This document shows positions 1 through 32,772 of a stretch of 64,000 nt of DNA, piece by piece. Source of the DNA: Sedimentibacter sp. MB31-C6. Its GTDB lineage: Bacteria > Bacillota > Clostridia > Tissierellales > Sedimentibacteraceae. Where the stretch lies: positions 1,798,001 to 1,862,000 of the forward strand of contig NZ_CP142396.1 of NCBI RefSeq assembly GCF_035934735.1, written 5' to 3'. The notes below the pieces were generated by a model. That model did no database searches and was not told the origin of the DNA. It saw only the letters and a program-made list of their open reading frames with translations. Numbering within the stretch: the stretch's first letter is position 1; the number at the start of each line of letters is the position of its first letter. A program made the position numbers and the translations under genes.

Positions 1-192
1 AAAATAAAAGAAAATGTGATTGGTCAGGCTGCAGATGGCTGGGGTGAGTCTTTTGAGCAAAGAGAAATAAGCACAGATATGGGAGATGTATATATAAGTT
101 TTTGGAATAGCAGTAAGAGCTGGTTTATTAAAACAGCAGAAGAAATGGGAATAAATCAAAATCAAATAATGGGAGGCATGAAATTTGAATAA
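1..192 (+). CDS. C-terminal end of an ICE accessory protein (partial)
   Basis: An open frame runs from the first base to a TAA at 190-192, giving about 63 residues of a protein whose start lies outside the window. I do not recognise a domain in this piece. It ends in NQIMGGMKFE, a methionine-containing tail that resembles the ends of several other accessory proteins here. The last codons overlap the ribosome binding site (GGAGG near 171) and the TTG start of the next gene, so the two are probably translated together. YodL or DUF4316-type proteins often sit at this place in related elements, but that is only inference. Confidence 0.55.
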   Translation, partial: KIKENVIGQAADGWGESFEQREISTDMGDVYISFWNSSKSWFIKTAEEMGINQNQIMGGMKFE

Positions 193-478
193 TAGAAATC
201 AAGTAGAAAAAATTAAAAAGATGTACCCTGCAGGAACAAGAATAGAGTTACTTTCAACCATGGATGATCAGCAAGGAGTTGAGAAAGGGACTAAAGGTAC
301 AGTGATTCTGGTAGATGATATAGGAACTATACACATGAAATGGGATAATGGCAGAGGCCTTGGTCTTATTCCCGAAGAAGATAATTTCAAAGTCTTATCC
401 AAACCACAAGAAGAAATCAAAGAATCTGAAGAACACTCCAAAGAACAGTCCCAAGGGATGGGAGGTATGAGTCTATGA
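185..478 (+). CDS. DUF4314 family protein
   Basis: This is a 97-residue soluble protein. Residues 10-70 match the DUF4314 pattern as I know it: a YPAGTRIELL start, a GTKGTV turn, DDIGTIHMKWDNG and a final GLIPEEDNFKVL. It should fold as a small beta barrel. The family occurs in Firmicutes conjugative elements and phages; its biochemical role is unknown to me. The start is TTG, supported by GGAGG about 9 bases upstream and by overlap with the preceding stop codon. The acidic C-terminus ends SQGMGGMSL, a version of the methionine-rich tail seen on other accessory proteins. Its stop overlaps the start of the ArdA-like gene, indicating coupling. Confidence 0.8.
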   Translation: MNNRNQVEKIKKMYPAGTRIELLSTMDDQQGVEKGTKGTVILVDDIGTIHMKWDNGRGLGLIPEEDNFKVLSKPQEEIKESEEHSKEQSQGMGGMSL

Positions 479-1494
479 GAGATTTAAATTATATGTGGAA
501 AAGGCTTGAAGGAACAGAAGAAGAGAAAGCCTATCTAGATAGGCGATTCAATAAAATGTCAGTTAAAGAGCAATATGTCTTAGAAGGTGCAATTCAAATT
601 ATCGGAATATATACTGCAGCAGATATGATTAATCTTACTGAACAGTTAAGCAGTTTTGACTTTTATTATAAAGCTATTGATGAAAAATCCCTTGGAGAAT
701 ATGTGGCTAAACATAAGGAGGATGCATCTGATGAGATACTTCCATTTATAAATACAGAAAAACTTGGCACTGAATACCATGATGACTTTGAAGGTGCATT
801 TACAAACAAAGGCTATATAATTGAAAGGAAAGCTGTAAAACAAATTTATGATGGCTCAAACCTAGATAAGCTGACAGGGGATAATTGGACTATAAAAGTT
901 AAAGTTGGAAGTAAAAAGTATCCAGAGGGCTTATGGATAAGCCTTCCTGATTACGGATCTTTTACTTTAGAACCTGATGAGCTAGATATTGCATTAGATG
1001 TACTTGGGTTAGAGAAGTGGGATGAAGGATATTTATTAGATGCAAAATGTATATTCCCAAATATTACAGAATTAAAAAACCAGTATGATTCCATAGAAGA
1101 ATTAATTGAGAGTGGTAATAATCTAGGTTATGCTTGTGATGAGCAAGATCAAGGGAAAGATTTTTATATGGAACATTTAGAATCAGCTATGGAGATTGAA
1201 GGGTGTAGCAGACTTGATTTTGCCCTTGATATCTCTCAAAATCTTGACTGCTATGACTTTGTACCAAAAGGCGCTAATTTTGAAAAGTACGGAAGAATTA
1301 TGGCAGAGAAACATGGCATCGTAAAGCCAGATTCAATATTAGGAGAAAACTTTGACTATGTAAAATATGCTATGGCAGTTATAGAAAAGGAGGAGTTAGA
1401 GCATTGCAAGCATGGTTTTATTAAAAGAAATGAAGAGAAGTTCTACTATGAATTCAGTAAAGAGCCAGATAGCATGGAAATATCCATGGAATAG
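475..1494 (+). CDS. ardA: ArdA-like anti-restriction protein
   Basis: This is a 339-residue acidic protein. ArdA proteins are elongated acidic DNA mimics that bind and block type I restriction enzymes as conjugating DNA enters a recipient. The C-terminal half, with ALDISQNLDCYDFVPKGA followed by EKYGRIMAEKHG, resembles the last ArdA domain. The N-terminal 45 residues (WKRLEGTEEEKAYLDRRF) are a leader I associate with clostridial ArdA-like proteins. It overlaps the DUF4314 gene by four bases (ATGA). The protein ends SMEISME, a weak form of the shared methionine tail. The assignment is by pattern memory, so a different polyvalent anti-defence family remains possible. Confidence 0.6.
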   Translation: MRDLNYMWKRLEGTEEEKAYLDRRFNKMSVKEQYVLEGAIQIIGIYTAADMINLTEQLSSFDFYYKAIDEKSLGEYVAKHKEDASDEILPFINTEKLGTEYHDDFEGAFTNKGYIIERKAVKQIYDGSNLDKLTGDNWTIKVKVGSKKYPEGLWISLPDYGSFTLEPDELDIALDVLGLEKWDEGYLLDAKCIFPNITELKNQYDSIEELIESGNNLGYACDEQDQGKDFYMEHLESAMEIEGCSRLDFALDISQNLDCYDFVPKGANFEKYGRIMAEKHGIVKPDSILGENFDYVKYAMAVIEKEELEHCKHGFIKRNEEKFYYEFSKEPDSMEISME

Positions 1495-1557
1495 AAAACT
1501 TCTCATAGCTATATTAAGTAACTTGTGATATATTGTGGTGCTTGAAGGAGGTGCACC

Positions 1558-1845
1558 ATGGAAGATATTATTGAAATACTGGAAGAAGCGGTAACTGAGA
1601 GACTGGAAATAGCATATTTTAAATTGATTAAGGAAAATGAGGAAGTAAAGCAAGGAGTAGAAATGGTAAAGGAATTAAGTATAAGGCTATATGGAAATAC
1701 TGATATTCCAAAAGAAGTAAGAAGACAGATTGAAGACTATAAAGACATATCTGACTTTGTAGAAAGGGAGATGCAAAAACATATTTATTTAGAAGGGATA
1801 AAAGATAGTATTAAACTCTTAAGAGAACTTGGTGTACTAAGATAG
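1558..1845 (+). CDS. Small hypothetical ICE protein
   Basis: This is a 95-residue, highly charged and probably all-helical protein with no membrane segment or signal peptide. The start is secure: GGAGG lies seven bases before ATG. The ending (EREMQKHIYLEGIKDSIKLLRELG) recalls small helical proteins of the DUF6809/DUF6664 type found in Firmicutes phages and ICEs, but I cannot assign a family firmly. It is followed at once by two hairpins with T-runs, so it probably ends the anti-restriction transcript that starts upstream of the window. Confidence 0.6.
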   Translation: MEDIIEILEEAVTERLEIAYFKLIKENEEVKQGVEMVKELSIRLYGNTDIPKEVRRQIEDYKDISDFVEREMQKHIYLEGIKDSIKLLRELGVLR

Positions 1846-1869
1846 CGCGGAAGATATCCGTGTTTTTTT
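1846..1869 (+). terminator. Intrinsic terminator
   Basis: A six-base-pair stem (CGCGGA pairing with TCCGTG, one G-T pair) with a five-base loop is followed by seven Ts. It begins one base after the stop codon of the preceding small gene. Confidence 0.5.
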
Positions 1870-1881
1870 ATACCCAAAATT

Positions 1882-1932: not shown

Positions 1933-1969
1933 GTGTCCAAAAACATGGAAGGGAAAAGGAGGCAGGGAG

Positions 1970-2308: not shown

Positions 2309-2326
2309 TGAAATATTAATAGTTTT

Positions 2327-3712: not shown

Positions 3713-4270
3713 ATGAGCAGGATCCATTTAAAAAATGGGCGTATTATTTATTATGGAAATCCAGCAGGTTATGTAGAAGACAATATAGCAACTGTGGACT
3801 TCATATTTAAAAGTGAGGAATTAGAAAACTGGATTCAGCAGAGGAAACTAATACCGAAATGGAAGGAAGGAGTATTTGAAAGATTGTCAGGAAAAGATGG
3901 ATTTAATTTCAATGAAGAAGAATTAATCTCACTAAAGAAATGCCGTATCTGGCAGTTAAAAACCGATGTAAGTCCAGAGAGAAAATTTATAGGATACGAA
4001 GAACTTAAAAGAACCTTTGGTGAACCTGATAAGGATAATTATAGAACTGCCTATGATGGGGAAATTGAAAGCAATGATTTGGAAGAAATCTATACAAAAT
4101 TCAATTTAAATCATCCCTATGGTTTTACTGGTCACTCACTGTCTATATCTGATGTAATCGAGCTTTATGATGATAATGGCAGTAAGTTTTTTTATGTGGA
4201 TAGATTTGGATTTAAAGAAATTGACTTTGAATCCCAGGATCATGGACAAGACATGAATATGAGTATGTAA
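3713..4270 (+). CDS. YodL-domain protein with Met-rich tail
   Basis: This is a 185-residue soluble protein. Residues 80-170 match the YodL domain as I know it: CRIWQLK, then EEIYTKFNLNHPYGFTGHSL, then SDVIELYDDNG and FYVDRFGFKEI. YodL domains are common in proteins of Firmicutes conjugative elements and have been proposed to belong to the polyvalent, transferred anti-defence proteins. The protein ends GQDMNMSM, one of the clearest examples of the shared methionine tail. It has a good RBS (GGAGGTG) and precedes the pilus module by 24 bases. Confidence 0.75.
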   Translation: MSRIHLKNGRIIYYGNPAGYVEDNIATVDFIFKSEELENWIQQRKLIPKWKEGVFERLSGKDGFNFNEEELISLKKCRIWQLKTDVSPERKFIGYEELKRTFGEPDKDNYRTAYDGEIESNDLEEIYTKFNLNHPYGFTGHSLSISDVIELYDDNGSKFFYVDRFGFKEIDFESQDHGQDMNMSM

Positions 4271-4294
4271 AATAAATAAATGGAGGAAAGTAGA

Positions 4295-4525
4295 ATGAGA
4301 AATATGTTTGGTAAAGTAAATGAGTTAAGGTTAGGAAAAGTTACTGCAATAAAAACAGCAGTGAGTAACAATCGTGGAGAAGGCTATATTGATACAGCAG
4401 TAAAGATACTCATTGCTGTAGTATTAGGAGCACTGCTCTTAGCGGGATTATACATGTTATTCGGTGATGTAGTTATGCCGACTTTGAATGAAAGAATCCA
4501 AGAAATGTTCAATTATGCAGGGTAA
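4295..4525 (+). CDS. DUF6133 small membrane protein, candidate Tad/Flp-type pilin (copy 1)
   Basis: The ATG at 4295 has GGAGG eight bases upstream and gives 76 residues, the same length as copy 2. A basic N-terminus is followed by NNRGEGYIDTAVKIL and one hydrophobic segment (ILIAVVLGALLLAGLYMLF). Reading the G before EGYID as position -1 puts an acidic residue at +5, the arrangement of type IV and Flp prepilin signals. A prepilin peptidase gene lies downstream. The family name DUF6133 is from memory; the pilin role is inferred from the motif, size and neighbours. Its last codons overlap an out-of-frame extension of the next ORF. Confidence 0.75.
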   Translation: MRNMFGKVNELRLGKVTAIKTAVSNNRGEGYIDTAVKILIAVVLGALLLAGLYMLFGDVVMPTLNERIQEMFNYAG

Positions 4526-4541
4526 GGGAGGAAGTTTAATA

Positions 4542-7500
4542 ATGAAATATAAATCAAAAAGAATAATTAATATCCTTTTAATAGTTTGTATTCTATTGAC
4601 TAACTTTATAGGATTTGTTTTTGCTGCAAAACATATATTTTCAGATAGTATAGGGCATTGGGCTGAGGAAACAATTAATATTCTTACTGAAAGAGGGGTT
4701 ATTCAAGGATACCCTGATGGACTATCTCACCCGGATAACACTATTACAAGGGGAGAATTTTCAGCACTTTTAGCAAGAACTATGGAGCTTGAGTCCAAAG
4801 ACAGTAGGAGTGTTGAACCAGCATTTGAAGATATTATAGGACATTTTGCCCAAAAGGATATAGAGGCACTTGTTAATGAAGGAATCATTATGATAGAGGA
4901 CTATGGTAACTTATATGTCCCTAACGAGCCTATCAGCCGAATGGAAATAATTAAAATGTTAGTTAGAGCGACAGTAAAAGAAAACCACGATTCAAATTGT
5001 ACTCGTGATACAGGATTTATTGATGAGGATAATCTAACTAAAGATGAAGTCGGATATATTTGTCTTGGAAAACAATATAATATTATTTCAGGTTACCCAG
5101 ACAGAACTATTCGTCCTGATGGTGAATCCACTCGTGCTGAAGCCTTTACAATGCTCATTAGGCAGGAAAAGGCTAAAGAAAAGATAGAGGCAGATAAAGC
5201 TGATAATAAAAACAAACAAGAAGAACCTATAGATAAGGACTCGAATACTGAGAATAGCCCATCTTCAGGAGGAAGTTCAAATTATGTTCCTGCTCCAAAA
5301 TATAGCTTTGAACTTCCCCTTACAGCTTATGTTGATGAAGAAATAGAAATTGTTCCTATGAGTTCAAATGTAAAGTCAGTTAAATGGGAGATTAGTAAAG
5401 ATGTTATCCCTATAGATTTGATTTCAGCTATTGACGGAGAGCTAAGGGCAGATGGCGGTACTATTAAAATTAAATCTGCTGGCAGTTATACATTTACAGC
5501 TATAGCTGCAAATAGCAGAGGGAAAGAGATTAAACATGAACAGAATATGGATATTTATCCCATAGTTTCTGCTGAACTTAAATTACCTAAAACAGTCCAT
5601 ACAGATACTACAATAGAAGTTGACCTAGAGGTTGAAAATTTGGGAGACAGCCTTGTAGCATGGACAGTTCACAGGGATGGTAAGGAAATAGAATTTGATA
5701 CTAATATTACAGGAGAACTTACAAACACTGGTGGTCTGATAATGTTCAACAACATAGGGGAATACGAATTAAAAGCCATTGTAACTGATGAATTGGGGAA
5801 AGAAACTATAGTAAGTGATGTAATTAAAATATATCCTGTGGGGGAAATAAAGTTAGAACTTAATAAAATAACCCATACTGATAAAAATATAACCTTAAAA
5901 ACAGAAACAAAAAATACAGAAGATATGGACTTAGTATGGTCTCTTACTAGGAATGGAGAAGAGGTCAAGGTTTCAGAGTTTATTGAAGGAGATATTTCGT
6001 CAGTTGACAGTATCATAGGTTTTAAAGAAAAAGGTGTATACAATTTAACTCTTTCAGCTATAGATGAGACTGGCAGAACATTTACAGAGAAGGTATCAAT
6101 TACTGTATATCCCGTAGGTTCTGCTGGTTTTTATTTGCCTGAAATATTCCATACAGATGATGAAATAAAAATTGAGACATCCTTTAAGGAAATAGGAAAT
6201 CATGATGCAGAGTGGTCACTTATTAAAGATGGCAAAGAAGTAGTACTTTCAGATTTTGTTAATGGCAACTTAAACAATGAAGGAGGAATAGCTTCATTTC
6301 CTCATAAAGGTGAATATACTCTGAAAGTTTCCTTCACTGATGATGGAGGAAGAATATATGACTATGAGCAAGGTTTTAAAGTTTATCCTGTGCCAGATGT
6401 GGCTTATACACTAGCTGAATATGCCCATACCGACAGCAATGTTAATATCGAGGTAAACAGCACAGAGCTTGATGGACTGGAAATCGAATGGCTTGTAGAT
6501 AATACCTATGGTTTTCAAGATTGGGAAACTTATGTAGATGGAAATCTAAATAATTCAGGTGGAGGTATCAGGTTTAAAAGGGCAGGTGTTTACGAACTTG
6601 TTGCTAGAATCACTGATAATACTGGCAGAATATTTCTCTTTGAATCAGGAGATAAAATAGAAGTTTTACCTATATTAGATATAGGATTTGAACTTCCTAA
6701 ATCAGCTTATACGGACAGCATAATCAATATTAGAACCTATGGAAATAATAATGTAATTCCAGTGGAATGGAGCATCACTAAAGATGGCGAGGCTATATCT
6801 GAAGATCAAGCAATCTCTGGAAACTTAAATGCACAAGGGGGCAAAATTACTTTCCTTACAGAAGGAGATTATACATTGACTGCAAGAATGACAGACTTCC
6901 TAGAGAGAAATTTTTCATATAGTCAAGAGGTAAGAATAAATCCTGTAGTTCAATATAGTTTTACCATGCCTGATTCCATTCATTATGGAAAGGAATTTGA
7001 AGTAAGTACAGTTTCTGAAAATCTTGGAACTAATGAAGTTAAGTGGATATTAGAAAAATTAGGTGAGTCGGTAAATTACAATGGTGAACTTACAAATGAC
7101 GGTGGGAAAATATCAATATCAGATACTGGAGAATTTACTCTTACGGCCTCAATCATAGATGGTGAAGGAAGAGTATTTACTCACAAAGAAAAAATTACTA
7201 TTACCAATACTGCGCCAACAGTAACATTAACAGCCACACCAACAAGAACTGTTAAGGATGGCAAGTTCTTTGTTGATATTAAGGTAACAGTTGCTGATGC
7301 AGACGGAGATGCAACCACCTTGGAATTTGATGGAACAACCAATGACAACTATTATTCAGTAGGCACACATACGGTTCGTGTCCGAGCAAAGGATATAGCT
7401 GGAGCTTATTCTCCTTGGATGGAAAGGAGCTTTACAATAGTAAATTCAGCACCAACAGTAACATTAACAGCCATACCAACAAGAACTGTTAAGGATGGTA

Positions 7501-8729
7501 AATTTTTCGTTGATATAAAGGCAACAGCCAATGATGCAGATGGAGATGCAACTACCTTGGAATATGAGGGAACAACCAGTGATAACTATTATTCAGTGGG
7601 TACGCATACAGTTCGTGTCCGAGCAAAGGACATAGCAGGAGCTTACTCTCCTTGGTCAGAAAAGAGCTTTACAATAGTAAATTCAGCACCAACAGTAACA
7701 TTAACAGCCACACCAACAAGAACTGTTAAGGATGGTAAATTCTTCGTTGATATAAAGGCAACAGCCAATGATGCAGATGGAGATGCAACCACCTTGGAAT
7801 ATGAAGGGAGAACCAGTGATAACTATTATTCAGTAGGCACACACACAGTTCGTGTCCGAGCAAAGGACATAGCAGGAGCTTACTCTCCTTGGGCAGAAAA
7901 GAGCTTTACAATTGCAAACTCAGCACCAACAGTAACATTAACAGCCACACCAACAAGAACTGTTAAGGATGGTAAATTCTTCGTTGATATAAAGGCAACA
8001 GCCAATGATGCAGATGGAGATGCAACCACCTTGGAATATGAAGGGAGAACCAGTGATAACTATTATTCAGTAGGTACACATACGGTTCGTGTCCGAGCAA
8101 GGGATATAGCAGGAGCATACTCCTCTTGGGCAGAAAAGAGCTTTACAATTGCAAACTCAGCACCGACTACTCCTGTAATTACTAGGACACCTAGCGGGAA
8201 TAGTGTTGCTCCTGGTACTAATGTGACCATTACAGCTAAGAGCACTGATGCAGACAATGATCCAATTACCTATGTTTGGGAGGGACGTAATGCAGAAACA
8301 CAAGTCTATCCATTAGGGAAAAATACAGTTCGTGTAAAGGCTGTGGATTCTACGGGTGCAGAATCTCCTTGGGCTGCGATTGTATTCTTTATAGCTGATT
8401 CAAACGGTGGTGGGGGTATGACGCTAACTGGCCCTGATTCAGTGATTCTAGAAAATGGATTGGATGGTGCGACTATTAGTGAATATACATTTACTGTCCC
8501 TCCTGTATCAGGACATAGTGGAAGTGACCATGGACGTGTTCGTGGATATAATGTGTTGACCAGACAATGGGATCAGCTTGACTATGGAACAACCAGCAAT
8601 GGAATAACATTCAGCAGAACTTTAAGTACTGGAGTTTATTCTAAACTAGAATTTTATTATTACACAAACCATAATTGCATGTACAACAAATCAAATATAA
8701 CCTATTCAGTGAGTTATCATTTTGAATAA
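4542..8729 (+). CDS. Giant SLH-anchored surface protein with Ig/PKD-like repeats
   Basis: The open frame extends upstream, but the ATG at 4542 has GGGAGG and begins a clear signal peptide (about residues 1-29, ending FVFAA). The mature protein has three SLH domains (about 31-212; motifs such as GHWAEETINIL and ITRGEF), which bind pyruvylated cell-wall polymers. An acidic linker follows, then about seven Ig-like units of 85-95 residues, then four nearly identical 79-residue PKD/cadherin-like units (891-1206; DADGDATTLE, GTHTVRVRAKDIAGAYSPW), one divergent unit and a C-terminal domain. It probably acts as a wall-bound adhesin or pilus partner in mating contact. It lies between the two DUF6133 genes, inside the pilus operon. 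Confidence 0.85.
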   Translation: MKYKSKRIINILLIVCILLTNFIGFVFAAKHIFSDSIGHWAEETINILTERGVIQGYPDGLSHPDNTITRGEFSALLARTMELESKDSRSVEPAFEDIIGHFAQKDIEALVNEGIIMIEDYGNLYVPNEPISRMEIIKMLVRATVKENHDSNCTRDTGFIDEDNLTKDEVGYICLGKQYNIISGYPDRTIRPDGESTRAEAFTMLIRQEKAKEKIEADKADNKNKQEEPIDKDSNTENSPSSGGSSNYVPAPKYSFELPLTAYVDEEIEIVPMSSNVKSVKWEISKDVIPIDLISAIDGELRADGGTIKIKSAGSYTFTAIAANSRGKEIKHEQNMDIYPIVSAELKLPKTVHTDTTIEVDLEVENLGDSLVAWTVHRDGKEIEFDTNITGELTNTGGLIMFNNIGEYELKAIVTDELGKETIVSDVIKIYPVGEIKLELNKITHTDKNITLKTETKNTEDMDLVWSLTRNGEEVKVSEFIEGDISSVDSIIGFKEKGVYNLTLSAIDETGRTFTEKVSITVYPVGSAGFYLPEIFHTDDEIKIETSFKEIGNHDAEWSLIKDGKEVVLSDFVNGNLNNEGGIASFPHKGEYTLKVSFTDDGGRIYDYEQGFKVYPVPDVAYTLAEYAHTDSNVNIEVNSTELDGLEIEWLVDNTYGFQDWETYVDGNLNNSGGGIRFKRAGVYELVARITDNTGRIFLFESGDKIEVLPILDIGFELPKSAYTDSIINIRTYGNNNVIPVEWSITKDGEAISEDQAISGNLNAQGGKITFLTEGDYTLTARMTDFLERNFSYSQEVRINPVVQYSFTMPDSIHYGKEFEVSTVSENLGTNEVKWILEKLGESVNYNGELTNDGGKISISDTGEFTLTASIIDGEGRVFTHKEKITITNTAPTVTLTATPTRTVKDGKFFVDIKVTVADADGDATTLEFDGTTNDNYYSVGTHTVRVRAKDIAGAYSPWMERSFTIVNSAPTVTLTAIPTRTVKDGKFFVDIKATANDADGDATTLEYEGTTSDNYYSVGTHTVRVRAKDIAGAYSPWSEKSFTIVNSAPTVTLTATPTRTVKDGKFFVDIKATANDADGDATTLEYEGRTSDNYYSVGTHTVRVRAKDIAGAYSPWAEKSFTIANSAPTVTLTATPTRTVKDGKFFVDIKATANDADGDATTLEYEGRTSDNYYSVGTHTVRVRARDIAGAYSSWAEKSFTIANSAPTTPVITRTPSGNSVAPGTNVTITAKSTDADNDPITYVWEGRNAETQVYPLGKNTVRVKAVDSTGAESPWAAIVFFIADSNGGGGMTLTGPDSVILENGLDGATISEYTFTVPPVSGHSGSDHGRVRGYNVLTRQWDQLDYGTTSNGITFSRTLSTGVYSKLEFYYYTNHNCMYNKSNITYSVSYHFE
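7212..8159 (+). repeat. Four tandem 237-bp in-frame repeats
   Basis: The units start at 7212, 7449, 7686 and 7923, and a diverged fifth unit begins at 8160. Each encodes a 79-residue beta-sandwich unit starting APTVTLTA. Units 2-4 are almost identical at the DNA level and unit 1 is slightly diverged. This suggests recent duplication or ongoing homogenisation by slippage or recombination. The copy number could vary between strains. Confidence 0.95.
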
Positions 8730-8746: not shown

Positions 8747-8977
8747 ATGAAAAGAACGATTAGGAAAACAAATGATTATATCATAAATAAGTTTATAGCT
8801 ATAAAATCGGCAACTAGCAATAATAGGGGAGAAGGATATATTGACACAGCTATAAAAATTCTTATTTCAGTAGTTTTAGGAGCATTACTTCTTGCAGGGT
8901 TATATATGTTATTCGGTGATGTAGTTATGCCAACATTAAATGAGAGAATCACAGATATGTTCAATTATGCAGGTTAA
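8747..8977 (+). CDS. DUF6133 small membrane protein, candidate pilin (copy 2)
   Basis: This 76-residue paralogue of copy 1 keeps NNRGEGYIDTA, the hydrophobic helix and the ending MPTLNERITDMFNYAG; the changes lie mostly in the basic N-terminus. GGGGAGG is 11 bases upstream of ATG. It directly precedes the prepilin peptidase, whose coding region overlaps its last codons. That is the expected place for the peptidase substrate. Two copies suggest a major and a minor pilin, or a duplication that came with insertion of the surface-protein gene. Confidence 0.75.
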   Translation: MKRTIRKTNDYIINKFIAIKSATSNNRGEGYIDTAIKILISVVLGALLLAGLYMLFGDVVMPTLNERITDMFNYAG

Positions 8978-9392: not shown

Positions 9393-11108
9393 GAAATTGT
9401 AAAATGATTTTTTGATAACTGTTGATAGAATCTAATAAAAAATAGCAAAAAAAAAGAAAAACAAGTTAAAGCAAGTGAAATAATTGGATTTAAGGGCAAC
9501 CTTAATACACCTACGAACATTGAAATATCAATAACTTTAAGCATTAAGAAATTATGCAATTAGTGGTTTAAGACTTCTAAGATACTGTGGACAACTTAAT
9601 CTGTGTGCGATAATTGCTGTGAATTGACTAGCAATTCCTGCAATAAGCACATCAGCTTTAGTAGTAAGATGGTCACGAGATTTTCTTCCGGCTATGCACA
9701 TGTTCATTTTAAAATGGTTAATGGCTCTTTCTACAACAGTACGTATTTTATACAACTCATTCCATTCATCAGAATCACGTTGTAAGCCTGGAAACATACG
9801 AAAACTCATATTTTCATAAGTGTAAGTAGTTCTACCTTTTTTGGCAGTGCTGCACGGATTGTCACAATTACAAACAAATTGACCTCTTTCCATATGAACT
9901 TTAGGGCATATCCATTTTATACGGTCGGCACGACCCTTTTCACGGCAAGGCCCACAATATTTCATAACCAAAGAGGAGTCATTTGGACATAATGGATAAC
10001 CATATTCATTGTAACCAACTTTTTTAAGAGTACTTTCATTCCTTGTATTGTAAGGGATAATTGCTTTTTTAAAATTAAATTCATCTTTTAAAAAAGTATA
10101 GGTTTCAATAGTATCAAAGGCGGAATCTCCAAGAAAAGTCGATGGGTGAAAATCAGGATGAAGTTCAAAGAAGTCTTGTAAAACCGGTTTTAATGCAGAA
10201 GAATCACCGATTGATTTATCCTCGTCAGGGGAATCGGATTTCTTGTCAATTTCAATATCTTGATGCTTTTGTTTGAAGTCATCATCCAAGAAAGCAATAT
10301 TACGCACAAGTCCTAAACCATTGGTGATAATAGCAAATTTGTCGGCATAACAGAAATGACCATTAATGTACATCTGTTTAGCATCAGGAGAAGATGTAGC
10401 TTGAGAAGGCATTAGACCATAAGCCATTTTGTATGGATCAACGTTAAGATTATTCTTATAGTAAGTTTTAAGCTGTCTAATGAGAGTATTCAAATACTTA
10501 GGATTGTTTTCTTTAACATATAATTCAATTCCGGAAGTATCAAGTGTAATAATTGAAGCAAGGGTAGAATCGATAGCTTGACAGATAGGTTCAGTATAGT
10601 CAACCATTTTAGAGAACATAAGCTCTAATTGAGGTATAAAGGTCTGTTTAAAACGTGTAAACATAGGGGCGTCAGGCACTTTTGTAAAACCACAGAAATC
10701 ACGCAATTCGCGACATAAAGAAAGTAAATTGATAAGTAAAGCATCAGTAGGAATGGTTAATATCTTCTGCAATATTAAAGCAGATAAAAATCCTTTTAAA
10801 GGATAATCCCTTTTTCTGCCTATTGATAAGTGGAAAGCACAGTAAAATTCCACTGGTATGAAATCACATAAATTAATATGTTCTTCTAATAGTGAGAAGA
10901 ATGTAGATGTGTCAGATGTTAGTAAATCTTGACATTCACTGAAATTTTCAGCAAGTGTTAGCTGAGAGTATTTAATAGACATAAGTTTCCTCCTGTTGTA
11001 GTTTTTGTTTGTTGGTACTTACATTATACCATAACAGGAGAGAAATTTATATATAAGATTAACACTAAACCCATCTAAATCAATGGGTTTGGGCATTTAA
11101 CAAATGCC
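9392..11108 (-). mobile_element. Insertion sequence with a DUF772-type DDE transposase
   Basis: The element is about 1.72 kb and carries one transposase on the minus strand. The ends form an imperfect inverted repeat: left GGAAATTGTAAAATG against the complement of the right end GGCATTTGTTAAATG, 12 of 15 matching. It is flanked by a 14-base direct repeat (15 of 16 if extended). A hairpin with complementary arms AAACCCAT and ATGGGTTT lies inside the right end at about 11069-11092. The transposase architecture suggests the IS1182 or a related unclassified (ISNCY) group. The long target duplication would be unusual for IS1182, so the family is left open. Confidence 0.8.
9552..10982 (-). CDS. IS transposase (DUF772 + DDE domain)
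   Basis: This is a 476-residue transposase. The N-terminal third matches the DUF772 type (DYPLKGFLSALILQKIL, then PDAPMFTRFKQTF). The DDE catalytic residues are probably the aspartates in TLDTSGIEL (about 148) and LGDSAFDT (about 284) and the glutamate in RTVVERAINHFK (about 431). A cysteine-rich insert lies between them (CGPCREKG through CNCDNPC). It starts at ATG with AGGAGG upstream. The frame is full length, so the element may be active. Its insertion opposes the transcription of the pilus operon. Confidence 0.9.
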   Translation of the reverse strand: MSIKYSQLTLAENFSECQDLLTSDTSTFFSLLEEHINLCDFIPVEFYCAFHLSIGRKRDYPLKGFLSALILQKILTIPTDALLINLLSLCRELRDFCGFTKVPDAPMFTRFKQTFIPQLELMFSKMVDYTEPICQAIDSTLASIITLDTSGIELYVKENNPKYLNTLIRQLKTYYKNNLNVDPYKMAYGLMPSQATSSPDAKQMYINGHFCYADKFAIITNGLGLVRNIAFLDDDFKQKHQDIEIDKKSDSPDEDKSIGDSSALKPVLQDFFELHPDFHPSTFLGDSAFDTIETYTFLKDEFNFKKAIIPYNTRNESTLKKVGYNEYGYPLCPNDSSLVMKYCGPCREKGRADRIKWICPKVHMERGQFVCNCDNPCSTAKKGRTTYTYENMSFRMFPGLQRDSDEWNELYKIRTVVERAINHFKMNMCIAGRKSRDHLTTKADVLIAGIASQFTAIIAHRLSCPQYLRSLKPLIA

Positions 11109-21943: not shown

Positions 21944-22297
21944 ATGAAACTGATATATGTTGCATCTCCATATAAGGGAGATATTGAAAAAAATATAGAA
22001 TATGCTAAAGAGGCATGCCGTTATGTATTAAATCAAGGCAATGCCTTTTTTTGTCCCCATCTGCTTTATCCTCAGATTTTAGATGATAATAATCCAGAAG
22101 AAAGAAGATTAGGAATTAATATAGGAAAAGAATTTTTAACAAAATGTGATGAACTATGGGCATTTGGAGGACATATTTCTCAAGGAATGTTTGAAGAAAT
22201 TGAGTTTGCTAGAAAGATAGGAATTCCTGTAAAAAGAATTATACAGCTTGATTTTGAAATAGAAGAACAGGAACTCTTAAAATTAGGGATGTATTGA
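21944..22297 (+). CDS. DUF4406 / nucleoside 2-deoxyribosyltransferase-like protein
   Basis: This 117-residue protein starts YVASPYKGD, continues with NIEYAKEACRYVL and contains DELWAFGGHISQGMFEEIEFA. That matches the DUF4406 branch of the nucleoside 2-deoxyribosyltransferase-like fold. The glycine loop near the N-terminus and the SQGMFEEI segment would bind a nucleotide. Such genes are common in phages and ICEs next to DNA methyltransferases, possibly for nucleotide processing or ADP-ribose metabolism. The stop overlaps the start of the C5 methyltransferase gene (TGATG), so the two are coupled. Confidence 0.75.
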   Translation: MKLIYVASPYKGDIEKNIEYAKEACRYVLNQGNAFFCPHLLYPQILDDNNPEERRLGINIGKEFLTKCDELWAFGGHISQGMFEEIEFARKIGIPVKRIIQLDFEIEEQELLKLGMY

Positions 22298-22968: not shown

Positions 22969-24037
22969 AGTAAGAGGCAAGGAACTTCCTAAACAATTAA
23001 GAATAGCTTTAGAAATTCAAGGCGAAGTGGAAGGTGCAGAACGAGAATCTAATGATAATATAATTACTAAATATAAGGCATACCATATTAATCAACGCAA
23101 TGAAGGGATTGATTTAAATGGAATTTCAGGAGCCTTGATGGCAACCCAGAATATGCAGATGCAGACTTTTGTTACAGAACCTATGCTGTGTCTGAATGAT
23201 CAGGGTGGTGATCGAATGGACATAACAGAGAATATCACCTCTACACTAAGAGCCAGCATGGGAGGGAATCAGCCCATAGTAATAGCATCCCAGCAAGATG
23301 GTTCAGAAATATGTAATGGCGCTTACCCAAACATTCCATCAGCAGCAGGAACAAGTGGCAACAATCAACCTATTCTATTCGATAATCACGGTAAAGACTG
23401 CAGATACAATGGTCCTCTTAAAGTAGCACCAACAATAGCTACAACCTATGGAACAGGCGGCAATAATGTACCGCTGGTATCAAAACCGATTAATTCAGAC
23501 AGTTATTGTATTGCAGGAAATACCATAGACAGACAGGATCATAATGGTGGAAATGGATGTGGGTTTCAAGAAAATATCAGCTATACTCTTACTACAAGTG
23601 ATATACATGCTATCTGCCATCCTGAATCTAAAACTTATCAAAATACAGTAGGAGCATTGTGTGGAAGTGATGAAAAAGGCATTGGTAACCAATATGTGAG
23701 CCAAGATAAATGTATTGTGGATAATGGGAAAATGATGTTTGGACAGTCGGAATTTGCTAATTACAAGGAAGGATGTGCAACACTTCGAGCAGAAGGTGGG
23801 GATAACGGAGGAGGAAGTGAAAACCTTGTAACCACAAAGAATCTTGTACGAAGATTAACACCATTGGAATGTGAAAGACTCCAAGGATTTCCTGATGGAT
23901 GGACTAAAATAAAAAAGTCATCTGATAGTGCAAGATATAAAGCATTAGGCAATAGTGTAGCAATTCCTTGTGTAGATTATATTATGCGAGGGATTGCTTA
24001 TTTTATTAGAGAATTCAAGGAAGAAACGGAGGAATAA
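22613..24037 (+). CDS. C5 methyltransferase, target-recognition part with motifs IX-X, overprinted N-terminus
   Basis: This frame (+1 relative to the catalytic part) overlaps it by about 356 bases and then continues alone. The ATG at 22613 has GAGGT six bases upstream, so separate translation is plausible. The first 119 residues are read out of frame through the catalytic gene and contain LSQILEDTPHPKYYLSKTAC. The middle holds a variable recognition region with repeated motifs (GTGGNNVPL, ALMATQ, TSTLRASMGGN). The end supplies motif IX RRLTPLECERLQGFPDGW and motif X ALGNSVAIPC. Only together do the two frames give a full enzyme. Confidence 0.75.
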   Translation: MQKEERQITLSDLDTSFGKMSLEHSQVQEEKTSKRYLKKPQELQTAPYLYLDLREGYGNLLGAYWDTNSLLLGEFSMLNTGVSPKDVKESFLSQILEDTPHPKYYLSKTACLGILRRAKVRGKELPKQLRIALEIQGEVEGAERESNDNIITKYKAYHINQRNEGIDLNGISGALMATQNMQMQTFVTEPMLCLNDQGGDRMDITENITSTLRASMGGNQPIVIASQQDGSEICNGAYPNIPSAAGTSGNNQPILFDNHGKDCRYNGPLKVAPTIATTYGTGGNNVPLVSKPINSDSYCIAGNTIDRQDHNGGNGCGFQENISYTLTTSDIHAICHPESKTYQNTVGALCGSDEKGIGNQYVSQDKCIVDNGKMMFGQSEFANYKEGCATLRAEGGDNGGGSENLVTTKNLVRRLTPLECERLQGFPDGWTKIKKSSDSARYKALGNSVAIPCVDYIMRGIAYFIREFKEETEE

Positions 24038-24298: not shown

Positions 24299-24300
24299 AA

Positions 24301-26332: not shown

Positions 26333-28153
26333 ATGGTGAAAAGGCGAGTATCTATCATCGAAGATGAAAAAATCAAAACCTTTATAGACATGATAGCTCC
26401 ATCCATCATCAAATTTAACACAGACCATTTTATCTGTGGCAATACCTATAGATGTGTATGGGCACTCAGGGAATACCCAACAAGCACCAGTGAGCAAGCA
26501 ATTCTTCGTCATTTAGGGGAGAAGGATGGTGTAACTCTTAGAATATATACTAGGCAGGTAACTCCAAGTGAAGAAAAGAAAATCATTCATAATGCAGCTA
26601 ATAAAAATAGGATGAATACCGATAATACAAATGATTTACAGCAGACTGTAACAGCAGAAAGCAATCTACAGGATGTTGTGACCCTTGTATCAGAAATGCA
26701 TAGGAACAGAGAACCACTACTTCACTGTGCAGTATATATCGAACTTATTGCAAGTGATTATGATAGCTTGAAGTTATTGCAGACGGATGTACTTACAGAG
26801 CTTGTAAGAAGTAAATTAAATGTAGATAGGCTTATGCTCAGGCAACAGCAAGGCTTTTTATGTGTAGGTCCAACGGGCAGGAATATATTTGGAAGCCAAT
26901 TTGAAAGGGTACTTCCAGCATCTTCCGTTGCCAATCTTTATCCCTTTAACTATTCAGGAAAGACTGATAGCAATGGCTTTTATTTAGGCAGGGATAAATT
27001 TGGTTCAAATATTATTGTAGATTTTGATAAAAGAGATGATGATAAAACTAATCCTTGTATTCTAATCCTTGGAAATTCAGGACAAGGGAAAAGTTATTTA
27101 TTAAAGCTGATATTATGCAATATATTAGAATCAGGAAAGAATGTCATATGTCTTGATCCAGAGCATGAGTATGTAGAACTAGCAGAAAATATAGGTGGGT
27201 GCTTTGTGGATTTAATGAGTGGAGAGTATATGATAAATCCATTAGAACCAAAAACCTGGGATGAAGGAGGAAGTCCGCATGACAAGGATGCCCCTATAGC
27301 ATTCAGACAAGCCACCAAACTAAGCCAGCATATAAGCTTTTTAAAGGATTTCTTCCGGTGTTATAAAGATTTTGATGATAGGCATATAGATGTAATAGAA
27401 ATTATGCTTGGCAAAATTTATAAGAAATGGAACATCAGTGACAGCACCAATTTCAGTCAATTAGAATCATTTGATTATCCTATTTTATCAGACTTATATA
27501 CCTTGATAGAGGAAGAATACAAAGGCTATGAAAAGGGAAAGTATCAGCTCTATACAGCAGAACTATTACAAGAAATCTTACTAGGACTTCATTCAATGTG
27601 CCAAGGAGCGGAAAGCAAATTTTTCAATGGACACACAAATATAACTTCAAATAGATTTATTGTATTTGGTGTAAAGGGGTTATTACAAGCCAGCAAAAAT
27701 GTAAAGAATGCATTGTTATTTAATGTATTATCCTTTATGTCAGATAAACTACTTACAGAAGGAAATACTGCAGCAGGGATAGATGAGCTATATCTGTTCC
27801 TTACCAATCTTACTGCAATAGAATATATACGTAATTTTATGAAGCGAGTGCGAAAGAAAGAATCAGCGGTAATACTTAGCAGTCAAAACCTTGAGGACTT
27901 CAATATTGAAGGAATTAGGGAGCTGACAAAGCCACTGTTTTCTATTCCAGCACACGCTTTTTTATTTAATGCAGGAAACATTGATAAGCATTTCTATATG
28001 GATACTCTACAGCTTGAAGAGTCAGAATACAATCTGATTAAATTTCCTCAAAGAGGGGTTTGCTTATATAAATGCGGCAATGAAAGATATAATTTGGCTG
28101 TCCATGCTCCAGCATATAAAGAAAAATTATTTGGAAAGGCAGGCGGCAGATAG
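26333..28153 (+). CDS. virB4: VirB4-family conjugation ATPase
   Basis: This 606-residue ATPase energises the type IV secretion channel. The N-terminal 230 residues are the VirB4-specific region. The P-loop is ILGNSGQGKSYLL near residue 246, followed by NVICLDPEHEYVEL. The Walker B region is AAGIDELYLFL and a later stretch is ESAVILSSQNLEDF. There is no membrane helix. The start ATG overlaps no gene; GGGAGG lies about 12 bases upstream. The stop overlaps the GTG start of the next gene. This is one of the firmest assignments of the conjugation module. Confidence 0.9.
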   Translation: MVKRRVSIIEDEKIKTFIDMIAPSIIKFNTDHFICGNTYRCVWALREYPTSTSEQAILRHLGEKDGVTLRIYTRQVTPSEEKKIIHNAANKNRMNTDNTNDLQQTVTAESNLQDVVTLVSEMHRNREPLLHCAVYIELIASDYDSLKLLQTDVLTELVRSKLNVDRLMLRQQQGFLCVGPTGRNIFGSQFERVLPASSVANLYPFNYSGKTDSNGFYLGRDKFGSNIIVDFDKRDDDKTNPCILILGNSGQGKSYLLKLILCNILESGKNVICLDPEHEYVELAENIGGCFVDLMSGEYMINPLEPKTWDEGGSPHDKDAPIAFRQATKLSQHISFLKDFFRCYKDFDDRHIDVIEIMLGKIYKKWNISDSTNFSQLESFDYPILSDLYTLIEEEYKGYEKGKYQLYTAELLQEILLGLHSMCQGAESKFFNGHTNITSNRFIVFGVKGLLQASKNVKNALLFNVLSFMSDKLLTEGNTAAGIDELYLFLTNLTAIEYIRNFMKRVRKKESAVILSSQNLEDFNIEGIRELTKPLFSIPAHAFLFNAGNIDKHFYMDTLQLEESEYNLIKFPQRGVCLYKCGNERYNLAVHAPAYKEKLFGKAGGR

Positions 28154-28677: not shown

Positions 28678-29721
28678 GTGGATTTAAGAGAGCAGAAGAT
28701 TGGAATTGAAGTTGAAATGACAGGCATAACAAGAAGGAGAGCTGCTGAAGTAATTGCTGAATATCTTGGCTCTACTGTTAATCATGAAGGAGGGGGTTAT
28801 GGTACTTATAGTGTAAGAGATAATGAGGATAGGAAGTGGAAACTTGTAAGTGATGGTAGTATTAAGTGTCAGAAAAGGGTGGGAAATAGAAAGCAATTAG
28901 CTGACAGAGAATATAGTGTGGAGCTTGTCAGTCCTATCTGCAGGTATGAAGATATAGAAAAGGTACAGGAGATGATACGAAAACTAAGAGAGGCTGGAGC
29001 CTTCAGTAATAAGTCCTGCGGAATCCATATTCATATCAATGCGGCACCATTTGAAGCTTATCAGCTTAGAAATCTTGTGAATATTGTAGCAGCAAAAGAA
29101 GATATGATATATAAAGCATTAAAGGTAGATTCAGAGAGGGAGAATCGCTATTGCAAAAAGATTGATAAAGATTTCTTGGAAAAACTGAATAAGCAGAAAC
29201 CAAAAACAATAAGTGGAATTCAAAGTCTTTGGTATAAGGGAAGGGATGGAAGCCATCAGCATTACCATGACAGCAGGTATAGATGTTTGAATCTACATTC
29301 AGTTTTTCAAAAAGGAACAATAGAGTTTCGTGCCTTTAATGGGTCTTTACATGCTGGAAAATTAAAAGCATATATACAGTTTTGTATGGCAATAACAGCC
29401 CAAGCTTATAACCAAAGGTCTGCAAGTCCAATAAAAACTGTATCTGAAAATGAGAAATATACATTTCGTGTGTGGCTTCTTCGTTTAGGGATGATAGGAG
29501 ATGAATTTAAGACAGCAAGAAAACATCTCTTAGATAATTTAGAAGGAAATATAGCTTGGAAATCACCAGAGCAGGCAGAAGCACAAAAAGAAAGACTAAG
29601 AAAAAAGAGAGAAGAAGAACTTTTAGAAGAGGAAGAAATTATGGAAAATGAAAATAATAATATGGAAATAGCTGAGCAGGAGGAAGAATCTCCTGCTTTT
29701 ACTATGTCTATGAATCAGTAG
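28678..29721 (+). CDS. Putative amidoligase (COOH-NH2 ligase fold)
   Basis: This 347-residue protein starts at GTG behind GGTGG. Residues 5-240 match the amidoligase family related to glutamine synthetase and gamma-glutamylcysteine ligase: KIGIEVEMTG at the start, WKLVSDGSI, EYSVELVSPI, SCGIHIHINA and GTIEFRAFNGS. The glutamates and histidines in these motifs would bind metal and ATP. Such enzymes form amide bonds between a carboxylate and an amine, on peptides or proteins. A charged helical tail ends PAFTMSMNQ, carrying the shared methionine motif. A gamma-glutamylcyclotransferase gene follows nine bases later, a pairing noted for this family. Confidence 0.8.
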   Translation: MDLREQKIGIEVEMTGITRRRAAEVIAEYLGSTVNHEGGGYGTYSVRDNEDRKWKLVSDGSIKCQKRVGNRKQLADREYSVELVSPICRYEDIEKVQEMIRKLREAGAFSNKSCGIHIHINAAPFEAYQLRNLVNIVAAKEDMIYKALKVDSERENRYCKKIDKDFLEKLNKQKPKTISGIQSLWYKGRDGSHQHYHDSRYRCLNLHSVFQKGTIEFRAFNGSLHAGKLKAYIQFCMAITAQAYNQRSASPIKTVSENEKYTFRVWLLRLGMIGDEFKTARKHLLDNLEGNIAWKSPEQAEAQKERLRKKREEELLEEEEIMENENNNMEIAEQEEESPAFTMSMNQ

Positions 29722-29730: not shown

Positions 29731-30267
29731 ATGGAAGAAACAAAGATAGATAAAGACTCAACTCATAAACTATATATTGCCTATGGAAGCAACCTAAACT
29801 TAAATCAGATGAAACACAGATGTCCTACTGCGGGAGTCATTGGAACATCGGAACTGAAAGATTATGAGCTTGTGTTCCGTGGGTCAAGACATAATGCAGT
29901 AGCAACTGTAGAACCATCTAAAGGAAGTACAGTACCGATTTTACTATGGAGTATCAAGCCTGATGATGAGAAAGCACTTGACAGATATGAAGGATATCCA
30001 AGTTTTTATGAGAAGGCTGGAGTTGATATCACCATAGGTGATCACAAAACTACAGCGATGATTTATATAATGACAGCAGGGCATAAGCTGGGGAATCCAT
30101 CAGAAAATTATCTAAAAACCATAGAGGAAGGTTATATTGATGCAGGATTTGATACAAATATTCTTCATAGTGCAGTAGAGAAAAACCAAAATAAAATAGA
30201 AGAGTTCAAAGAGATGGATGAATACGAACCTAAGCAGGTAGACATATTTGGAATGAGATGGTGGTGA
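29731..30267 (+). CDS. Gamma-glutamylcyclotransferase-like (AIG2/GGCT) protein
   Basis: This 178-residue enzyme starts LYIAYGSNLNLNQMKHRCP, the substrate loop typical of GGCT proteins. LDRYEGYPSFYEK near residue 88 supplies the catalytic glutamate region. The family opens gamma-glutamyl amide bonds and releases 5-oxoproline. Next to the amidoligase it could remove or trim what that enzyme adds. TAGGAGG precedes ATG. The end, KQVDIFGMRWW, contains a QxxIF pentapeptide like that of the D12 methyltransferase. Confidence 0.85.
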   Translation: MEETKIDKDSTHKLYIAYGSNLNLNQMKHRCPTAGVIGTSELKDYELVFRGSRHNAVATVEPSKGSTVPILLWSIKPDDEKALDRYEGYPSFYEKAGVDITIGDHKTTAMIYIMTAGHKLGNPSENYLKTIEEGYIDAGFDTNILHSAVEKNQNKIEEFKEMDEYEPKQVDIFGMRWW

Positions 30268-31383: not shown

Positions 31384-31397
31384 AAGGGGGACTCTTT

Positions 31398-31976
31398 ATG
31401 TTAATTACAAAGGCAATATTACAAAGAAAAATATCTGAATTCAATACACAAAATTGTGTAATTGAAGGTATTGAATTAATGAATGGGGATGAGTTTGAAG
31501 AATTTAGTAACAATTTATTAGAAGACAGGGACTTCATTATAGAAAGAAAAGAAGAAATGTATAGAGACTCTGAAGGACAGATCCATGTATTATTGGCACT
31601 TGATAGGGAAGGTGGAGATGGGATTTTAATTGATAGTCAAGGACACAATTATGCAAGGTATACCGCATTTATGCCAAATATAATGCCCTATATTGAACAG
31701 CAAATTTCAATAGCTGCAGGACAAATAATAAAGGAAGCTGCAGAAAATTCATCCAATGATAGCTGGGCTATTTACTTTGATGAAATAGAAGAAAACCATG
31801 GGTTAATAGTAAAAGAAAATAATGGAATAGGTACAATGCTTTTAGATGAACTGCATAGAAGAGAAGAAATTGCAGAGATTGAAATTGAAGACGAATGCTT
31901 TGATATTACCTTATATCTTGATTACTGTATTAACTTAGATGAAGAAATAAATCCAAGTCAAAATATGAAAATGTAG
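31398..31976 (+). CDS. DUF6329 family protein with Met tail
   Basis: This 192-residue acidic protein follows the pattern I know as DUF6329: IEGIELMNGDEFEEFSNNLL, then IHVLLALDREGGDGIL, then NYARYTAFMPN and GIGTMLLDELHRREEI. The family is confined to conjugative and related elements and has no known function. It ends SQNMKM, a short version of the shared methionine tail. AAAGGGGG lies before ATG and the next gene follows after 12 bases. Confidence 0.75.
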   Translation: MLITKAILQRKISEFNTQNCVIEGIELMNGDEFEEFSNNLLEDRDFIIERKEEMYRDSEGQIHVLLALDREGGDGILIDSQGHNYARYTAFMPNIMPYIEQQISIAAGQIIKEAAENSSNDSWAIYFDEIEENHGLIVKENNGIGTMLLDELHRREEIAEIEIEDECFDITLYLDYCINLDEEINPSQNMKM

Positions 31977-31988
31977 GAGGAATTGCAT

Positions 31989-32369
31989 ATGGATAATATA
32001 GAAAAGACAATTCGTATTTTAAAAATTGAACCGCAGAAATTACCTTATGAAAAGGAAATAAATAATGATTTGGAAGGTATCCAAGGAGAAGTTGAAGGAC
32101 TATTTGAATGCATTTATCTAGATGATAATTGCATATTAGTATGTAATGAAGAAGGAAAACTAAATGGAATGGAGTTAAATCGAAGGGTTGGTAATGACAT
32201 TATTGCCGGTCCTTTTTTTATTGCAGGAGATAGTTGTGATGGAGAATTTATCTCCCTTACTGATGAACAAGTAGAACAATATACAAATGAATTCAGTAAA
32301 ATTCAAGAGTTTACTGGTGAAGAACCTGAGGCACAGCCGAGAATGGAATTTATAAGCTTTGATTTTTAA
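31989..32369 (+). CDS. DUF3846 family protein
   Basis: The frame opens at a TTG at 31983, but that lies too close to the RBS; the ATG at 31989 has GGAGG seven bases upstream, giving 126 residues. It matches DUF3846: IRILKIEPQKLPYEKEI, FECIYLDDNCILVCNEEGK and NDIIAGPFFIAG. This family is frequent in phages and ICEs and is one of the proposed polyvalent anti-defence components. It lacks the methionine tail, ending MEFISFDF. Confidence 0.8.
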   Translation: MDNIEKTIRILKIEPQKLPYEKEINNDLEGIQGEVEGLFECIYLDDNCILVCNEEGKLNGMELNRRVGNDIIAGPFFIAGDSCDGEFISLTDEQVEQYTNEFSKIQEFTGEEPEAQPRMEFISFDF

Positions 32370-32385
32370 AGGAGGGAAATAGAAC

Positions 32386-32772
32386 ATGGAAAAAGTAACA
32401 CTGCAAGTGACTTTTCCAAAAGAAAAGTTAGATGCCTTAAGATTTTACATGAATGAAAAGCAGTTGACTGTTGAAGAGGAACTACAAAAGCATATTAAAA
32501 ACACCTATGACAAATATGTTCCATCTGCCACCAGAAGATACCTGGACAGAAATGATAATGGCGAGGAAATGGAAAGAGAAATAGTATCTAGAACAAATGA
32601 AAACACGTCAGAAACTGTCTCTGGAAATACAACAACTAGAGGAAGGAGAAGGGCTGGGAGAAGTCAAAGTGCTGAGGAACAAGAAGAGACAGAAACAATA
32701 AATGAAGTAGAAATTGAAGAGACATCAGACCAAACTGAGGAACAAAATCAAGGGATGACAATGAGTATGTAA
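32386..32772 (+). CDS. DUF6103 family protein with Met tail (copy 1)
   Basis: This is a 128-residue protein. The first 60 residues (TLQVTFPKEKLDALRFYM, then VEEELQKHIKNTYDKYVP) form the conserved DUF6103 core, which looks like a ribbon-helix-helix unit. A long disordered acidic and arginine-rich tail follows and ends NQGMTMSM, a clear example of the shared methionine motif. GGAGGG precedes ATG. It is one of two DUF6103 paralogues upstream of the candidate oriT, so relaxosome or DNA binding is plausible. Confidence 0.75.
   Translation: MEKVTLQVTFPKEKLDALRFYMNEKQLTVEEELQKHIKNTYDKYVPSATRRYLDRNDNGEEMEREIVSRTNENTSETVSGNTTTRGRRRAGRSQSAEEQEETETINEVEIEETSDQTEEQNQGMTMSM

Follow-up and report, generated by a model that had tools for sequence, protein, structure and literature searches.

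An integrative and conjugative element (ICE; the label rests on gene content) of Sedimentibacter sp. MB31-C6 encodes several otherwise unrelated accessory proteins that end in the same short methionine-rich tail. The element was studied in a 64,000-nucleotide stretch (NZ_CP142396.1, positions 1,798,001 to 1,862,000; the window) within a 3.02-Mb genome, and the tail is also found in related elements across Clostridia. Comparison of these sequences suggests that the tail is probably a C-terminal signal, specific to the class of element, by which proteins are recruited to the type IV secretion system of the ICE itself; we infer that the carriers are substrates of that system. The initial annotation of this DNA had offered either a secretion signal or a modification site. 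The former is favoured because the tail accompanies one clade of VirD4 coupling proteins, is carried by the primase and weakly by the relaxase, is absent from the phage homologues examined and is replaced by another tail in several ICEs with a VirD4 of a different clade; the latter is not supported.

Carriers and shape of the tail

The carriers and the relevant conjugation genes of the window are as follows.

1..192, + strand: ArdA-domain protein, C-terminal part; tail IMGGMKFE at 166-189
185..478, + strand: DUF4314 protein (Pfam 1.6e-29); tail QGMGGMSL at 452-475
475..1494, + strand: ArdA-like protein (Pfam ArdA 6.6e-5, below the curated cut-off); tail DSMEISME at 1468-1491
3713..4270, + strand: YodL protein (Pfam 3.9e-38); tail GQDMNMSM at 4244-4267
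26333..28153, + strand: VirB4-like ATPase; no tail, C-terminus KLFGKAGGR
28678..29721, + strand: Amidoligase_2 protein (Pfam 2.7e-82); tail AFTMSMNQ at 29695-29718
31398..31976, + strand: DUF6329 protein (Pfam 2.3e-15); tail NPSQNMKM at 31950-31973
32386..32772, + strand: DUF6103 protein, first copy (Pfam over cut-off); tail NQGMTMSM at 32746-32769
32820-33074: DUF6103 protein, second copy; no tail
33917..36586, + strand: MobL relaxase with Sel1 repeats; weak tail EQEQNIEL at 36560-36583
36607..38106, + strand: DUF3991/Toprim primase-like protein; tail-like KQIREMAMQ at 37990-38016
38079..39893, + strand: VirD4-like coupling protein (type IV coupling protein, T4CP); basic C-terminal tip KRRPTLRT at 39867-39890

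The protein ending in 1-192 starts upstream of the window; complete, it has 486 residues and matches Pfam ArdA at 2e-8, over the cut-off (L011:39-1499). The DUF4314, YodL, Amidoligase_2, DUF6329 and DUF6103 proteins also exceed their Pfam cut-offs. All seven C-termini quoted in the initial annotation match the sequence exactly, and its seven unrelated carriers are indeed seven proteins; they represent six families, since 1-192 and 475-1494 are both ArdA-like. Its statement that no relaxase carries the tail proved incorrect in many relatives and no more than half correct in the window, where the weak form EQEQNIEL stands in the place of EQTMSL or EQDMKL in relatives. In the window primase 29 further residues follow KQIREMAMQ, about where the near relatives L257 and L260 stop. 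This gene (36607-38106) overlaps the VirD4 start.

The same genome contains a second element of the same build, with a DUF4314 gene at 1709042, DUF6103 genes at 1741459 and 1741912, and a coupling protein (at 1750394) that is 83% identical to that of the window. It has the same kind of tails, among them QGMGGMSL, QDMNMSI, AFTMSMNR, PSQNMNM and QGMVMSM; a DUF5688 protein of this element ends in QGMEMKM and its relaxase in EQDMKL.

Among 94 non-redundant tails Met occupied position -1 in 46%, -3 in 60% and -5 in 35%; the tails were selected for Met, so these percentages are partly by choice, whereas the Glu/Gln and charge figures are not. The leading residues elsewhere were Ser at -2, Gly at -6, Gln at -7, and Glu and Gln at -9 to -12, giving a consensus of about Q-G-M-x-M-S-M behind an acidic, Gln-rich linker. 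The mean charge of the linker (residues -30 to -7) was -3.8 in 100 Met-tailed open reading frames (ORFs), compared with -0.2 in 516 ORFs without such a tail from these regions. When 17 amidoligases were aligned, their MSM end (SPAFTMSM, SPGLSMSM and similar) proved to be conserved, following a hypervariable linker. The tails sit at the very C-terminus, in a region predicted to be disordered in the one tailed protein modelled with AlphaFold2, the window amidoligase: residues 323-347, comprising the linker end and the tail, had a predicted local distance difference test score (pLDDT) below 50, against a model mean of 75.7.

The first two window genes overlap the start and ribosome-binding site of the next gene, as would be expected if the tail were a by-product of translation signals or of low-complexity drift. 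Yet of 96 unique tails only 10 had the Shine-Dalgarno-like sequences AGGAG or GGAGG in their last 27 nucleotides, every one of the six Ser and four Gly codons occurred, and Met was replaced by Leu, Ile or Phe at unchanged spacing. Since the Ser and Gly codons vary freely and so few tails contain a Shine-Dalgarno-like sequence, selection most likely acts on the protein. These figures agree with the view of the initial annotation that ribosome-binding-site overlap is an insufficient explanation, and they leave a translational by-product as the least probable account of the tail.

Tail frequency and the VirD4 coupling protein

At least two Met in the last six residues were found in 107 of 1372 ORFs from ICE regions, compared with 3 of 375 control chromosomal ORFs (Fisher p 1e-8). 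Because those regions had been chosen mainly via two tailed families, the count was repeated on loci taken by coupling-protein alignment without use of the tail (80 of 484 relatives, near-copies included). In the 50 of these loci that spanned at least 19 kb, the 30 shorter ones being left out, 120 of 1185 ORFs were tailed, compared with 5/375 in chromosomal controls and 9/353 in 20 loci that surround other coupling proteins. Upstream of the VirD4 end, 45/50 loci had one or more tailed ORFs and 37/50 had two or more; at least two were present in one of 20 chromosomal control loci and in one of 20 loci around other coupling proteins. ORFs were taken from a greedy longest-ORF script, and some are not genes.

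At the DNA level, the pattern ATGNNNATGAGYATGTAR (MxMSM-stop) matched 44 times in 393 genomes of the class, compared with seven matches for the reversed pattern, and was present in 8/20 genomes with DUF6103 but 26/373 others (Fisher p 8e-5). Reading the frames of 29 matches (loci L048-L076) showed most to be short chance frames. Seven exceeded 100 residues, of which five were DUF6103-type ICE proteins; the remaining two were L066, presumably a FliE-like protein, and an unexplained case in genome G321 (L064). On contig C11 of G321 (L136:40-1151), ORFs ending GMGMSM and MGMSMQ lie beside chromosomal-looking genes. Loci L077-L136 were selected for DUF6103 or DUF4314, plus G321 for the pattern.

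The control regions and the reversed pattern, together with internal and N-terminal controls, rule out an origin by chance or composition. Neither of the outcomes that the initial annotation had named as refuting its view was obtained: chromosomal control regions seldom contain the motif, and most homologues in related ICEs keep the tail. Under stricter clustering 40 of 687 clusters had at least one tailed member, some surely by chance; single-linkage clustering at E 0.01 merged several Pfam families through chaining, and its count of 24 was discarded.

The distribution among families was assessed in the 80 coupling-protein-selected loci by the same two-Met rule. The tail was carried by 22/23 amidoligases, 14/14 first DUF6103 copies (DUF6103a), 11/24 DUF6329 proteins (17 by a looser rule) and 36/72 DUF3991/Toprim primases (47 by the looser rule). 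It was absent from VirB4 (0/19) and VirD4 (0/80), and likewise from NlpC (0/49), MobC-like proteins (0/52), orf170 (0/14), orf88 (0/63; 1 by the looser rule) and DUF3846 (0/18; 4 by the looser rule), and it was found on 1/24 second DUF6103 copies (2 by the looser rule). No relaxase satisfied the two-Met rule (0/68), but 40 of 66 relaxases longer than 250 residues ended in a weak form, [MIL]xL, as in DDHEQTMSL, DEHEQDMKL and DHEQQNIEL; this ending occurred in 7/375 control ORFs and 1/290 proteins of six non-carrier families tested. Further tailed proteins matched SpoVG, DUF7768, DUF3991/Toprim, DUF5688, DUF4240, DUF1281_C, LPD28 and DUF7659. Two neighbours of the carriers, GGACT and DUF3846 (window 29731-30267 and 31983-32369), have family-specific C-terminal tips in relatives, GGACT almost always ending in KWW and DUF3846 frequently in FIGFDF or a similar sequence.

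To what does the tail correspond in the secretion machinery? In a tree of 33 coupling proteins of the tailed elements (the Met class; 20 random members of the 80 and 13 further ones) and 22 other coupling proteins, the Met-class proteins formed one side of a 100/100 branch, some branches on the other side being long. The tail-bearing elements share one VirD4 clade, a link that the initial annotation had proposed to check. Of 19 genomes checked for VirD4, the Tad ATPase and amidoligase, which were chosen for tails at their loci, 18 contained this VirD4. The last 30 residues of VirD4 had a mean charge of +1.2 in the Met class (78 unique) and -6.7 in the other class (22 unique, comprising all 22 long coupling proteins of that class), where 21/22 tips were net negative. 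The C-terminal domains of T4CPs all have Glu/Asp-rich regions according to the covered part of a review (PMC7434980), so the basic VirD4 tip is unusual. In a model of the window VirD4, residues 566-604 had pLDDT below 50, consistent with a disordered tail, and no binding site was found in the folded model. Contact between the VirD4 tip and the cargo is a fair guess.

Two other candidate readers were considered. The small gene following VirD4, orf88, was rejected as a dedicated chaperone, as it encodes an HTH_36 protein. The window pilus genes match T2SSE, RcpC/CpaB and Peptidase_A24, and we take them to be Tad genes. Genome G130 has tails and two VirD4 proteins of this clade, while its best match to the window Tad ATPase is 28% identical, so a Tad-like pilus seems not to be needed; from this one genome, such a pilus is unlikely to be the tail reader. 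A chaperone or adaptor may be the direct reader.

The same distribution would be expected if the tail served to dock its carriers onto a scaffold, chaperone or relaxosome assembly encoded by the element, the carriers acting in the donor instead of being translocated. A short conserved end behind a disordered linker fits a docking peptide, for a reader that is itself only proposed. We regard docking in the donor as unlikely, however, since the tail goes with a VirD4 clade and differs in elements with another VirD4, and since ArdA, YodL and LPD28 also occur in polyvalent proteins proposed, in the covered part of their description, to be delivered with DNA (PMC5512222).

Phage homologues and other element classes

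Homologues of the amidoligase and the DUF4314 protein are common in phages (96 and 157 phage records, respectively), and 14 of these phages were fetched. None of eight phage amidoligases had the tail, the chain ending within 8 residues of the matched body, and none of eight phage DUF4314 proteins had it, four ending within 20 residues of the matched body and four extending by 34-60 residues of different sequence. These counts leave out two proteins that the ORF caller did not recover, an amidoligase (L340) and a DUF4314 protein (L348). Shorter second amidoligase-like ORFs in the fetched phages were also without the tail. GGACT was present in seven of these phages as well. One record labelled as a phage, L350, encodes VirB4 and a tailed amidoligase and was treated as an ICE fragment. 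In the phages L337-L347 the amidoligase, GGACT and DUF4314 genes are often close together, with a terminase near in several; nine of the fetched phages are labelled as the candidate order Heliusvirales.

These phages bear on the proposal that the tail is a covalent modification site for the ICE's amidoligase/GGACT pair. An amidoligase was present in 18 of the 19 genomes checked and is itself tailed. Yet phages with both enzymes have no such tails, and a different one is found in other ICEs. In G170, whose element has the most tails (13 tailed ORFs in 40 kb), those 40 kb encode no amidoligase, and the genome has just a weak match (3e-5) on another contig. The phages and G170 thus speak against the modification site put forward in the initial annotation, which we consider highly improbable.

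A different tail was found in several elements of a second class. YodL occurs in 40/393 genomes; the short YodL of Met-class ICEs has Met-type or related hydrophobic tails, whereas the long YodL of another class, presumably Tn1549-like, ends in KNHELEV, KKDLEV, QDLERS, AEMER and similar. A survey of all 40 loci L187-L206 and L237-L256, in which some proteins were counted under two domains, found endings in Arg on 5/5 Toprim primases, 7/7 DUF3846 proteins and 10/17 relaxases; other relaxase ends, such as EQERG and EQRW, were close, and those of L194, L202 and L248 were not. YodL ended in LEV/MEV/REV, LERS or Arg in 13/18 cases, and the sole DUF4314 protein in KDMER. Up to eight different proteins per locus had Lys-rich ER/R tails (L205, L253, L255, L256, L189), in most of these loci including the relaxase. 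At L253, for example, the relaxase ends in KSRYEQRW, a DUF3801 protein in KPKTKER, an ArdC-like protein (weak match) in RSKDYER, a primase fragment in NEER and a 1518-residue protein in KEKSYER. The ER/LEV cargo was basic, with a mean charge of +1.9 that is partly by choice, the 45 ORFs having been picked by their endings. Four ORFs at L206:3081-10869 (G441), maybe paralogues, show a further possible tail type (ILDLTEEQNNTRK, ILDLTAQDENVRK, ALDIIQEQNNARK, LDLTDDELNSGRK).

C-terminal similarity was also scored without reference to a motif, between non-homologous pairs among 1192 ORFs of at least 90 residues, controls included; ICE ORFs were taken from the majority strand of 18 Met-class and 20 other-class groups, and the window was cut at 41000. 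Selection of the 20 other-class groups (8 of loci L237-L256 and 12 groups from L187-L206) followed inspection of their endings. At a strict cut the scores agreed with the two tail types: of pairs from one class, 0.48% (Met class) and 1.49% (other class) scored at least 18, compared with 0.16% between classes, 0.13% for Met class against chromosomal control, 0.13% for Met class against internal Met-class segments and 0.12% within controls. For pairs from different elements the values were 0.43% (Met class) and 0.72% (other class). With the same ORF selection, which also underlies the charge counts, Arg-ending proteins numbered 58/259 in the chosen other-class groups, 21/317 in controls and 47/616 in the Met class.

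Short hydrophobic C-termini can serve as protease signals, and the tail might accordingly be a degron, or an anti-degron, that a protease adaptor of the host recognises and that times the life of each protein. A host-read signal should be uniform within one host, yet genome G000 combines a pair of Met-class elements with a third element whose VirD4 has an acidic tip and neighbours ending in KEGRDR, DKGER and NEKER. The phage homologues, moreover, lack the tail. A degron is therefore very unlikely.

A C-terminal address code in Clostridial ICEs is, in our view, slightly more likely than not; in it different VirD4 classes would use their own tags, and captured families would gain the tag of the element that took them up. 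Under such a code an acidic linker with a Met strip would address the basic-tipped VirD4, a Lys-rich ER or LEV end would address several acidic-tipped ones, and the families would have been captured from phages or other elements.

Proposed recruitment, neighbouring genes and known systems

Recruitment to the secretion system, the reading we prefer, could operate as follows. The disordered, acidic, Gln-rich linker would present a short terminal strip of alternating hydrophobic residues, mostly Met, to which the VirD4-like coupling protein would attach, either by itself or together with an adaptor, the acidic linker perhaps contacting the basic disordered VirD4 tip by charge. The relaxase, primase and anti-defence or establishment proteins would thus be recruited together and pass into the recipient with the DNA; both VirD4 binding and translocation of the carriers are postulated here. 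A signal of this type would explain the tail on the primase and accessory families and, weakly, on the relaxase, its absence from machine parts and phages, and the different tail in other elements.

Several observations weigh against this reading. Half of the primases lack the strict form of the tail, 26/66 relaxases lack [MIL]xL, and GGACT, which adjoins the amidoligase, is never tailed (0/27). Five of the 50 long loci have no tailed ORF (L272, L301, L322, L335, L336). Genome G174 encodes a tailed DUF6103 protein near a contig end, with no VirD4 of this clade in the assembly, and in G321, which lacks a coupling protein, two tailed ORFs lie at the edge of a contig. The last 30 residues of VirD4 have a net negative charge in 11 of the 78 Met-class proteins (-7 in L119), and since each of the two VirD4 classes is a clade, the association of charge with tail type reflects few independent events. 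Around other coupling proteins, about eight of 20 loci have an evident shared tail; by eye, twelve (L237-L245, L247, L251, L254) do not, and therefore not every ICE class has one. In the motif-free test a cut of 14 separates weakly (1.61% within the Met class and 1.17% within controls).

Other genes of the window were also noted. A DUF772/DDE transposase (9552-10982, - strand) lies between the type IV leader peptidase and the RcpC/CpaB pilus gene, and an HNH endonuclease ORF (19968-20774, - strand) lies directly upstream of TrbL, within the run of secretion genes. The C5-cytosine methyltransferase is present as two overlapping frames, of which 22607-24037 has the Pfam match and 22294-22968 was assigned by eye. 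A 1413-residue protein with S-layer (SLH) and Ig-like repeats (4488-8729) is flanked by two small DUF6133 copies, 4280-4525 (Pfam match) and 8747-8977. The MobC-like protein, which we take to be MobC, has a weak RHH_1 match only (0.057).

If such an address code exists, the tag would name, gene by gene, what a Gram-positive element injects with its DNA, and could help to predict many uncharacterised anti-defence families. Being readable from sequence, a tag would provide a list and a simple test of proteins delivered with DNA, suggest the recipient as the place of action for many DUF families, and open a way to study how VirD4 selects its substrates in Clostridia of the gut and the environment. 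In the open-access literature (PMC; subscription journals and preprints lay outside the scope) we found no defined signal for protein substrates of Gram-positive conjugation, nor the Met-strip tail, its Gram-positive setting or different tails on the same families.

The C-terminal tip of SSB and encapsulin cargo peptides resemble the Met tail in being short hydrophobic docking peptides that follow a disordered linker, and differ from it in sequence, reader and context. Polyvalent proteins of conjugative elements and phages, for which delivery with DNA by type IV secretion has been proposed, have YodL, ArdA, LPD28 and Toprim-type primases among their common domains; the part of that article covered describes no common C-terminal tail and does not mention amidoligase among the domains (Iyer et al. 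2017, PMC5512222), and a word search of its main text did not find 'methionine'. Such proteins have at least two distinct domains, and the seven window carriers have one Pfam domain apiece. In the F plasmid conjutome and pED208, establishment proteins and the relaxase are transferred in a VirD4-dependent manner, as proposed here, but the signals vary in place and charge, and the covered parts of these studies report no motif common to the substrates (PMC11288057, PMC8406263).

C-terminal translocation signals are already known for type IV secretion, namely the Arg type of Agrobacterium VirB/D4 and the E-block of Legionella Dot/Icm (PMC10025392, as far as that source was covered). The ICE tails resemble both in their C-terminal position, in being shared by unrelated substrates and in their charged or hydrophobic residues. 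For the Glu-rich Dot/Icm motif the Met-class linker (Glu 23-34% at positions -9 to -12) offers a possible parallel, E-block proteins being compared here by description only, but the tip is Met and the host and machine are unrelated. The positively charged C-terminus of the Arg-type signal is not found in the Met class (mean -3.8 over residues -30 to -7). The ICE tails are distinct in the alternating Met of the tip, in their Gram-positive setting, in their weak presence on the relaxase and in the opposite charge shown by another ICE class, whose Lys-rich ER tails are, by description, closer to the Agrobacterium Arg type.

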